In this document: piece by piece, positions 12,676-53,272 of the stretch
How the letters are laid out: every line of letters begins with the position of its first letter
Numbering within the stretch: the stretch's first letter is position 1
NCBI GenBank assembly: GCA_019116525.1
Contig: DXBM01000050.1
Location: forward strand, 118,211 to 182,210
DNA length: 64,000 bases
Origin: Candidatus Olsenella pullistercoris
GTDB taxonomy: Bacteria; Actinomycetota; Coriobacteriia; Coriobacteriales; Atopobiaceae
Direction of reading: 5' to 3'
Translations under genes and position numbers: made by a program
Notes under the pieces: generated by a model
Database searches by the model: none
What the model was told of the DNA's origin: nothing
Seen by the model: the letters and a program-made list of their open reading frames with translations, nothing else

Positions 12676-13857
12676 ATGCTCGGTGACTTCACCTACCACA
12701 ACCCAACCAAACTCATCTTTGGCAAGGACGCCATGGCGGCGCTCGCGGACGAGCTCCGCGCGTACGGACCTATGGTCCAGCTCGTCTACGGCGGGGGCTC
12801 CATCAAGAGGAACGGCATCTACGACCAGGTCATGGCGGCGCTCGCCGACGCGGGAAAGACCGTGGTCGAGGACGCGGGCGTCATGCCCAACCCCACGGTC
12901 GAGAAGCTCCGCGAGGGTGTTGCCATCGCGCGTGAGAACCACGTTGACCTGATCCTTGCCGTGGGCGGCGGCTCGTGCATCGACTACGCCAAGGGCGTGG
13001 CCGTCTCCGCCAACCTGCCGGAGGACGTTGACCCCTGGCAGAAGTACTGGGTGGACTTCGACGAGCCCGCCGCGGACCTCGAGGTGGTCCCTGTGGGCAG
13101 CGTGCTCACGATGGTGGGAACCGGCTCTGAGATGAACTGTGGCTCGGTCATCACCAACCACGAGGCAAAGATGAAGGTCGGCCACGTCTTTGCCGACGCG
13201 CGCGTGTTCCCGCGCTTTGCGGTGCTCAACCCGGAGTTCACCTACACGCTGCCGCGCTACCAGATGGTCGCCGGCATCTTTGACATCATGAACCACATCA
13301 CCGAGCAGTACTTCTCGGGCACCGACGACAACACCTCCGACTACCTCGCCGAGGGCCTCATGCGCAGCCTCGTGGCCGCGAGCCGTGCCGCCGTTGCGAA
13401 CCCCGAGGACTACGAGGCCCGCTCCAACATCATGTGGTGCGCCACGTGGGCGCTGAACACCCTCATCGCCATGGGCAAGAGCACGGACTGGGAGGTGCAC
13501 ATGCTCGGCCAGGCCGTGGGCGCGCACACCGACGCCACGCACGGCATGACGCTCTCCGCCGTGGCGCTGCCGTACTACCGCCTCGTCATGCCGTACGGCG
13601 CGGAGAAGTTCGCTCGCTTCGCGACCAACGTGTGGGGCGTCTCGCCGGAGGGTCGCTCGACCGAGGAGCTCGCCGCAGCCGGCCTCGACGCGATGGAGGC
13701 ATGGATGCGTGAGATCGGCTGCGTGATGACGACCGGCGAGCTCGGCGTCACGGAGGACATGCTTGAGGCCATCGCCGACTCTACGCTCGTGATGCAGGGC
13801 GGCTACCACCCGCTCACGCGCGACGAGATCGTGTCGGTGCTTCGCGCCAGCCTGTAG
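12676..13857 (+). CDS. Iron-containing alcohol dehydrogenase (BdhA/YqhD-like)
   Basis: FGKDAMAAL...GGGSCIDYAKG...TGSEMNCGSVI...EVHMLGQAVGAHTDATHGMTLSAV. Confidence 0.95.
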   Translation: MLGDFTYHNPTKLIFGKDAMAALADELRAYGPMVQLVYGGGSIKRNGIYDQVMAALADAGKTVVEDAGVMPNPTVEKLREGVAIARENHVDLILAVGGGSCIDYAKGVAVSANLPEDVDPWQKYWVDFDEPAADLEVVPVGSVLTMVGTGSEMNCGSVITNHEAKMKVGHVFADARVFPRFAVLNPEFTYTLPRYQMVAGIFDIMNHITEQYFSGTDDNTSDYLAEGLMRSLVAASRAAVANPEDYEARSNIMWCATWALNTLIAMGKSTDWEVHMLGQAVGAHTDATHGMTLSAVALPYYRLVMPYGAEKFARFATNVWGVSPEGRSTEELAAAGLDAMEAWMREIGCVMTTGELGVTEDMLEAIADSTLVMQGGYHPLTRDEIVSVLRASL

Positions 13858-13886
13858 TGATACGAAGGGACAGTCCCTTCGTATCA
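13858..13886. repeat. Perfect palindrome TGATACGAAGGGA-CAG-TCCCTTCGTATCA
   Basis: 13-bp perfect arms directly after ADH stop; central GGGACAGTCCC resembles other palindromes in window. Confidence 0.7.
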
Positions 13887-13919
13887 CCTTCGTGTCGCTT
13901 CTCGTGAAAAGGAGCCATC

Positions 13920-22332: not shown

Positions 22333-22357
22333 GTCAAAAGGGGACTGTCCCCTTTTG
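22333..22357. repeat. Family A palindrome GTCAAAAGGGGAC-T-GTCCCCTTTTG
   Basis: Near-identical to copies at 50092 and 53246; immediately upstream of prfC RBS. Confidence 0.85.
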
Positions 22358-49470: not shown

Positions 49471-50091
49471 ATGTCCTACTGCGACTGGGACACCACCGAC
49501 GAGCTCTGCCTGCGCTACCACGACGAGGAGTGGGGCGTGCCGCTGCACGACGACCGCGGGCAGTTCGAGTTTCTCTCGCTCGAGGTCATGCAGTGTGGGC
49601 TCAACTGGACCATGATGCTGCACAAGCGCGAGGTGTTCCGTGTGTGCTTTGCGGGCTTTGACTTTGACGCCGTGGCCGCATTTGGCCCGGACGACGTCGA
49701 GCGCATCCTGGAGACGCCGGGGATGATTCGCTCCCGCCGCAAGGTCGAGGCCATTGTGGGCAACGCGCGCTGCTTCCAGCAGGTCCGCGCGGAGTTCGGC
49801 AGCTTCGACGCGTACCTCTGGGGTATGGCCGGAGGCGCCACGATCCTCTACAACAAACACGCCGACGGGTGGATCCCCGTGAGCAACGGGCTCTCCGCGC
49901 GCGTGGCCGCCGACCTGCGCCGGCGCGGCTTCAAGTACCTGGGTCCCACGACGGTCTACTCGCACCTGCAGGCCTGCGGCATCATCAACGACCACGGTCG
50001 CGACTGCCCGCGCTACGCGGCGATAAACGCCATGGGGCCCACGGTCGAGAAGCGTCGCTACCTCGAGAAGGGCGTCTACCACTATAAGTAG
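49471..50091 (+). CDS. tag: DNA-3-methyladenine glycosylase I
   Basis: YHDEEWGVPLHDDRGQFEFLSLEVMQCGLNW; RRRGFKYLGPTTVYSHLQACGIINDH. Confidence 0.97.
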   Translation: MSYCDWDTTDELCLRYHDEEWGVPLHDDRGQFEFLSLEVMQCGLNWTMMLHKREVFRVCFAGFDFDAVAAFGPDDVERILETPGMIRSRRKVEAIVGNARCFQQVRAEFGSFDAYLWGMAGGATILYNKHADGWIPVSNGLSARVAADLRRRGFKYLGPTTVYSHLQACGIINDHGRDCPRYAAINAMGPTVEKRRYLEKGVYHYK

Positions 50092-50262
50092 GTCAAAAGG
50101 GGACAGACCCCTTTTGACTCATAATTTCGAACTCAATGCGTTCACAATTCAGATTCGGCACACGCCGTGTGCCGAATCCTTGGGCTGAAGATTCTTGACG
50201 CAATGCGTCAAGAAAGTGCACGCAGCGCGTGCACAATTCGAGACGTGCTGTGTCTCGAATTG
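50092..50262. repeat. Array of successive perfect hairpins with unrelated arm sequences
   Basis: Palindromes at 50092-50118, 50152-50178, 50192-50214, 50216-50234, 50234-50262 between convergent genes. Confidence 0.85.
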
Positions 50263-50270
50263 AAGGAGCG

Positions 50271-50759
50271 TTACAGGTCAACCACGCGGACGTTGTGGCC
50301 GTGCCGGCGCAGCAGCGCAGTCAAGTCCGTCGTGGCGAGAAGGACGGTCGCGGTGTTGTCGCATGGGTGCACGGTCACACGTCTGGCATCGACAATCGCC
50401 TGGTCGAGCACGACCTCCACGCGCCGCTCGGTGTCGTTGAGCGCGCCGAGCGGTGTGACGGCGCCCGGCACAAGACCAAGCATCGATCTCAGGTCCTGCT
50501 CGCTGGCGAACGAGAGGCGGCGCGAGCCAAGGCGCTCCTGGACCTCTCGCAGCGAGACGCGCTTGTCGTCCGGAAGACAGACGAGGTAGTACGCTCGGTG
50601 CTTGTCGTCGCGCAGGAAGAGGTTCTTGGCGCCGAGCTCGCGGTGGGGGATGCCCGCCGCGCGCGCCTCCTCCACGGTGAAGACCGCCTCGTGCTCGTAG
50701 AGCTCGTAGGCGACTTCCTCGCGGTCGAGCAGCTCGAGCACCTCCCGCCTGCCGAGCAC
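50271..50759 (-). CDS. YbaK/ProX-type prolyl-tRNA editing protein (PrdX-like)
   Basis: YELYEHEAVFTVEEARA...GAKNLFLRDDKHRAYYLVCLPDDKRVSLREVQERLGSRRLSFA. Confidence 0.95.
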   Translation of the reverse strand: MLGRREVLELLDREEVAYELYEHEAVFTVEEARAAGIPHRELGAKNLFLRDDKHRAYYLVCLPDDKRVSLREVQERLGSRRLSFASEQDLRSMLGLVPGAVTPLGALNDTERRVEVVLDQAIVDARRVTVHPCDNTATVLLATTDLTALLRRHGHNVRVVDL

Positions 50760-53245: not shown

Positions 53246-53272
53246 GTCAAAAGGGGACTGTCCCCTTTTGAC
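53246..53272. repeat. Family A palindrome GTCAAAAGGGGAC-T-GTCCCCTTTTGAC
   Basis: 13-bp perfect arms, single central base, between convergent genes. Confidence 0.9.

Follow-up and report, generated by a model that had tools for sequence, protein, structure and literature searches.

An array of palindromes between tag and prdX as putative docking sites for DUF1016/YhcG proteins

Palindromes in the tag-prdX interval

The window, by which we mean the whole 64-kb stretch of DNA that was analysed, contains a series of palindromes between two convergent genes, tag on the + strand and a gene on the - strand which we take to be prdX/YbaK, following an earlier note made from the sequence alone and general knowledge of the family. 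This setting had been described correctly in that sequence-only reading. The features of the locus are listed below.

49471..50091, + strand: tag (DNA-3-methyladenine glycosylase I), left border of the locus; ORF and orthologs
50092..50118, no strand: REP-like family A hairpin, neighbour of the array and not a member; dispersed copies, does not fit the array motif
50124..50148, no strand: array unit 1, type TGA, 5' arm degraded in the window; ATTTCGAACTCAATGCGTTCACAAT
50152..50178, no strand: array unit 2, type GGC; GATTCGGCACACGCCGTGTGCCGAATC
50192..50214, no strand: array unit 3, type TTG; TTCTTGACGCAATGCGTCAAGAA
50216..50234, no strand: array unit 4, type TGC; GTGCACGCAGCGCGTGCAC
50234..50262, no strand: array unit 5, type GAG; CAATTCGAGACGTGCTGTGTCTCGAATTG
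50271..50759, - strand: presumed prdX/YbaK-type deacylase, right border of the locus; ORF and orthologs

The five perfect palindromes reported in the sequence-only reading are present (50092-50118, 50152-50178, 50192-50214, 50216-50234 and 50234-50262), and the degraded one placed near 50123-50149 corresponds to an imperfect palindrome at 50124-50148. The 64-kb window holds 10 perfect hairpins (arm length 11 or more, loop no longer than 8), more than chance would give, each of three Markov-2 shuffles having 0. Folding of the segment 50119-50266 as single-stranded DNA gave z = -7.4 relative to dinucleotide shuffles.

The units had been regarded as unrelated in sequence, which does not hold from 50124 onwards. 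The five palindromes after the first (50124-50262) share a common frame, ATTS-NNN-ACRC-NNN-GYGT-N'N'N'-SAAT, with some departures, and are distinguished by a variable triplet that reads TGA, GGC, TTG, TGC and GAG in units 1 to 5, respectively. Unit 1 is intact in sibling species as ATTGTGAACTC..GCGTTCACAAT. The first palindrome was rightly assigned to a dispersed family, family A (CAAAAGGGGACNGNCCCCTTTTG), copies of which are found in the window at 50092-50118, 13857-13887, 22335-22357 and 53246-53272, and in large number in the window genome and related genomes of the genus; as a member of the array, however, it fails to fit the motif.

The array is conserved in relatives and is not the unique arrangement that would have spoken against the sequence-only reading. 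Fifteen genomes of the genus have at least two non-coding units at this locus: seven also have a DUF1016 gene there, seven lack it, and one (G017) has the locus at a contig edge. The window genome, which is 81.5% complete, is one of the seven that keep the array without this gene at the locus, and no DUF1016 gene was detected in it. Unit order and spacing (29, 38, 22 and 23 bp) are constant in all complete copies, and units are fused in G004, while G011 and G021 have each lost one. Variation among orthologs amounts to 2.9% at bases 6-9 from the centre, 7.4% at inner bases, 11% in the linker and 26% at the centre. The proposal that pairing is kept while sequence differs applies between units, in which the triplet varies, but not between sibling orthologs, where the sequence itself is conserved and 3 of 54 pairs (4 cells) changed on both sides. 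As far as sequence comparison can tell, the array orthologs are conserved in the manner of protein sites. We concur with the sequence-only reading that the palindromes are under selection and that they form a modular array.

Palindromes within DUF1016 genes

To follow the array motif through the genus, its strict form (ATTCNNNACRCNNNGYGTNNNGAAT) was searched against 31 Thermophilibacter genomes, with the reversed motif as a control. This search revealed 30 sites in 21 genomes and none with the control. All sites are located either in the tag-prdX interval or within genes encoding a DUF1016_N domain. The latter belong to DUF1016/YhcG, a family of uncharacterised function listed as a candidate phage-defence gene. 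A DUF1016/YhcG gene occupies the tag-prdX interval or lies beside prdX in 16 genomes of sibling species (G010, in which an LGW variant escaped the motif search, is counted by its in-gene GGC site), and each of these 16 genes carries one of four types found in the array: TGA in G022 and G026, GGC in G010, G012, G013, G018 and G025, TTG in G002, G009, G023 and G024, and TGC in G001, G003, G014, G027 and G030. The in-gene palindromes encode the peptides IVNALRSQL (TGA), IRHTLCAEL (GGC), ILDTVCQEL (TTG) and KVHALRAQL (TGC), flanked by FP and LSW motifs. GAG sites also occur within DUF1016 genes, namely those of L252, L325 and a Victivallales genome (L276), while other DUF1016 paralogs of Thermophilibacter carry the types GTG, GGA/GGT and GCC.

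Comparison of the locus across siblings shows repeated gain, loss and swap of DUF1016 types, with gene copies located between array units in G023 and G022. Seven occupied loci retain array units and every DUF1016 gene at the locus carries its own site, indicating insertion without loss of the target. The idea of a landing zone for a mobile element may apply in part, with DUF1016 genes occupying the interval in 16 siblings, some of them between array copies. In some siblings (L146, L147, L145, L140) the interval has additionally acquired genes for a SWIM zinc-finger protein, a DUF4160 protein and an unassigned protein of 102 residues, and it is expanded to 11-13 kb in G025 and G030.

The analysis was extended to 140 distinct DUF1016 genes from Actinomycetota, the phylum of a Victivallales genome, Pseudomonadota, Bacillota, Cyanobacteriota, Bacteroidota and viral contigs. 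The best palindrome at one codon position has a median score of 10.7, compared with 4.1 for synonymous recodings, and 113 of the 140 genes score above all 60 recodings; the remainder, about a fifth, do not. In most of the genes the palindrome is positioned just after a putative ParB-like recognition helix, and in 69 of an earlier set of 79 genes no other palindrome in the gene scored higher than that at the fixed position. Odd palindromes are centred at the first base of a codon without exception (122/122). Multiple in-frame units, two to four, are present in 19 genes, with their centres in one codon phase, unlike the array, in which spacings are not multiples of 3. The longest arms, with as many as 17 pairs, occur in a GC-richer subclass (L208, L211, L245, L324, L346) that is characterized by the in-gene core AACAG/CACAA together with a PWGH motif.

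As an illustration outside the genus, yhcG of E. coli K-12 contains three in-frame units and one non-coding unit, which starts 15 bp after the stop codon in the convergent gap between yhcG and nanQ, a layout the same as that in the window. On NC_000913.3 the in-gene sites lie at about 3368129-3368236 and the non-coding one at about 3368970-3368994. Among E. coli yhcG variants, one deletion, which is in frame in L266, takes out units 2-3, and the truncation of the B-type gene has its endpoint at unit 3. In E. coli B-JRPT-4119 (L272, 1501-2420), the truncated B-type yhcG is followed by a small ORF that is annotated as a transposase and does not resemble one.

In general, palindromes in DUF1016 flanks are modestly enriched (0.20 vs 0.07 per kb, a difference inflated by repeated E. 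coli copies), and few non-coding sites lie close to other DUF1016 genes, so arrays are not a general feature. Two free-standing palindromes of DUF1016 type lie beside DUF1016 genes of other types in G393 (L251, upstream at -223; L235, downstream at 70), one of them with a 17-base score (TTTGAATTGTGCACACGACGTGTGCACAATTCAAA). On plasmids of Azotobacter and Chryseobacterium (L258, L259), DUF1016 is located between the methyltransferase gene and the specificity or helicase gene of restriction-modification loci.

Covariation of protein and palindrome

Alleles with different palindromes, compared in E. coli and in Thermophilibacter and hence in two phyla, differ mainly at residues ~80-125, which comprise the helix before the palindrome and the palindrome itself; this region varies little among alleles of one type. 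Triplet changes in E. coli affect both arms jointly (GCC/GGC, TCC/GGA, TGC/GCA).

Throughout the family, base -7 of the first unit can be predicted from the residue 12 positions ahead of the FP motif. The base is G in 53/53 genes with Arg at this residue, C in 25/25 with Ala, Lys, Gln or Asp, and T in 12/16 with Thr. On a tree built from the nuclease domain only, Arg at this residue changed 25 times, and among 14 independent supported pairs base -7 followed in 13.5 on average and never in the contrary direction (p=1.2e-4). The flanking bases -8 and -6, used as controls on this tree, were not significant. Because base -7 is the third (wobble) base of a codon located 15 codons downstream of the predictive residue, the link cannot come from coupled changes between amino acids. 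In addition, the residue 13 positions after FP tracks base -3 (Ser with A in 49/54, Gly with C in 22/22, Phe with C in 7/7), with weaker tree support than that for base -7. A third candidate, between helix position -8 and base -6, was strong in raw counts, failed the tree test and was dropped. By the resulting code, secondary units of multi-unit genes mismatch their local reader.

In an AlphaFold model (mean pLDDT 70 overall, about 80-92 in the region of the helix-turn-helix and loop), the predictive residue is placed at the start of the second helix of the helix-turn-helix (59-77, 83-95), and the residues encoded by the palindrome form a mostly loop segment ahead of the next helix. Foldseek matched the nuclease domain to NucS/EndoMS, and the DNA-binding part to domains of ParB and Noc with a probability of 0.96-0.99 but weak E values of 0.06-0.2. 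Profile similarity to ParB is likewise weak (hhalign E 0.015), the Pfam HTH_ParB match of 20.4 bits is below the cut-off of 22.6, and the only families above cut-off are DUF1016_N and YhcG_C, with no CTPase domain of the ParB/Noc kind among them. A structure search for a solved member of the family gave only a chance-level match.

When DUF1016 was aligned by eye to ParB of the same genome, the predictive residue coincided with Caulobacter R173, the spacing to LP/FP being 13 residues in both, and the residue 13 after FP coincided with G201. In the published structures, guanine 1 of parS is contacted by R173 of ParB and position 6 by the counterpart of G201 in Noc, and residues at both positions switch specificity between parS and NBS (PMC7383237). 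Combined with the by-eye alignment, these contacts place the two best-covarying DUF1016 positions at known specificity positions of ParB/Noc.

Possible roles of the array

From sequence evidence of five kinds (the motif, its location, its conservation, the family-wide in-frame palindromes and the covariation of helix and site), we infer that the array at 50124-50262 very probably represents five docking sites for different specificities of DUF1016/YhcG. Each palindrome would be a putative site for a different specificity allele. The reader would combine a ParB-like helix-turn-helix with a NucS-like PD-(D/E)XK nuclease, and two copies of the protein would presumably sit on the two arms of one palindrome. 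The R173 equivalent is predicted to read base -7 and the G201 equivalent base -3. In most genes of the family the cognate site would form an in-frame part of the loop that directly follows the recognition helix, and such embedding implies that reader and site would be inherited and swapped as one cassette. The tag-prdX array of Thermophilibacter would then provide a site for each specificity of the DUF1016 alleles at the locus, plus GAG. Counted against docking are the weak profile similarity to ParB, the scarcity of non-coding sites beside other DUF1016 genes, the fifth of the genes that does not exceed all recodings and the mismatched secondary units, and it leaves unaccounted for the conservation of the array in the seven genomes without the gene at the locus.

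What docking would accomplish is less certain. Gain, loss and swap at the locus, genes between units, fused and lost units and the deletions in E. coli favour a recombination or homing-like role. Docking at the array might direct the nuclease to the locus and promote gain, loss or exchange of DUF1016 cassettes, a suggestion that we regard with some doubt. Docking might also serve to exclude rivals. Synthetic lethality of yhcG with dnaB, dnaN and parE alleles (PMC2672614) fits a role at replication intermediates and is not decisive.

Alternatively, DUF1016 could bind within its own gene and block transcription, with the array sites titrating the alleles or cross-regulating them. The in-gene site is the only one in most genes, and its place beside the recognition helix would preserve autoregulation through changes of specificity. 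We nevertheless find this unlikely, as the array and the E. coli sites are positioned at gene ends between convergent genes and not at promoters, and the presence of all allele types in one array is left unexplained. Rather less likely still, the units might be sites of DUF1016 type of which the non-coding array is a functionless remnant, left by lost DUF1016 genes or by their recombination. The seven array-bearing genomes without the gene at the locus, the units lost or fused in G004, G011 and G021, and the existence of multi-unit coding loops that could leave such remains all agree with it; half-site positions more conserved than linker and centre, the order and spacing fixed in all complete copies, and spacings out of step with the codon phase of in-gene tandem units do not. 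These two alternatives and the recombination or homing-like role overlap, in that all three accept the identity of the sites.

The explanations that dispense with DUF1016 fare worse. Bidirectional terminators or a structured 3' RNA, both raised in the sequence-only reading, would suit the location between convergent genes and the high stability of the hairpins. A search for T-tract terminators, however, found none on the + strand and one weak match on the - strand, no more than in shuffles (0.6 expected); there is no Rfam match, little compensatory change was found among orthologs, and the same motif occurs within ORFs together with a protein-base code, all of which makes this origin highly improbable. 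A REP/BIME-like origin, with mobile palindromes disseminated by a RAYT transposase, can be practically dismissed in spite of four Y1 (RAYT-like) transposase genes in the genome and the true dispersed REP-like repeat adjoining the array, as the array motif is not dispersed and occurs only in DUF1016 genes and at the tag-prdX locus in the 31 genomes. An integron or attC-like cassette array, considered on account of genes between hairpins in siblings, was rejected because the gene is DUF1016 and some of the hairpins are inside it.

The protein assigned to the array sites, DUF1016/YhcG (PF17761 and PF06250; PADLOC PDC-S02), is not mentioned in connection with in-gene palindromes, a target or arrays in the sources examined, and its assignment as a nuclease dates from 2005 (PMC1189080). 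In the titles, abstracts and inspected passages of the open-access literature, with subscription journals outside the search, we found no description of in-gene DUF1016/YhcG sites or of such arrays, in line with the sequence-only reading, which put the array forward as a candidate for an undescribed one.

Several known systems share some of these features. Closest in concept are the PARCEL coding palindromes and a parS site that is located within spo0J, a parB gene. ParB-parS and Noc-NBS (PMC7383237) resemble the proposed system, in which a putative helix-turn-helix of the ParB kind would likewise read a palindrome, in R173 and G201 equivalents that vary with the base, and in a G, contacted or predicted to be contacted by Arg, about 7 bases from the dyad. 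DUF1016 differs in its NucS-like nuclease domain, in its hypervariable specificity, and in a site that in most members lies in its own ORF after the recognition helix, whereas parS and NBS are nearly fixed and mostly located elsewhere. Homing endonucleases likewise tie a nuclease gene to a specific site and show a patchy distribution with repeated gain and loss at one locus, but here the occupied locus keeps its sites, the gene contains one and insertion spares the target. REP/BIME arrays are also clustered intergenic palindromes; units of the present array are non-dispersed and tied to DUF1016, not to RAYT. Palindromic DNA within coding sequence is known from the Rickettsia palindromic elements. 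It is also found in the PARCEL coding palindromes (PMC2996958). These known cases are membrane-protein repeats or insertions scattered over many different genes, in contrast to the DUF1016 sites, which are restricted to one family, one codon position and one phase and are linked to the reader by a code.

More broadly, and tentatively, DUF1016/YhcG proteins may be self-addressed nucleases, each gene encoding a reader together with its DNA word, and arrays could gather the words of all alleles of a lineage, either serving for docking or exchange of cassettes or providing an identity system between resident and incoming mobile elements. If true, a gene that holds the binding site of its own product, with residue and base coevolving, would represent a new way of keeping reader and target matched as specificity diversifies. 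For the widespread DUF1016/YhcG family, including the member in E. coli K-12, it would supply part of a recognition code, partner sites in chromosomes and, for most of the genes studied, a predicted DNA target.
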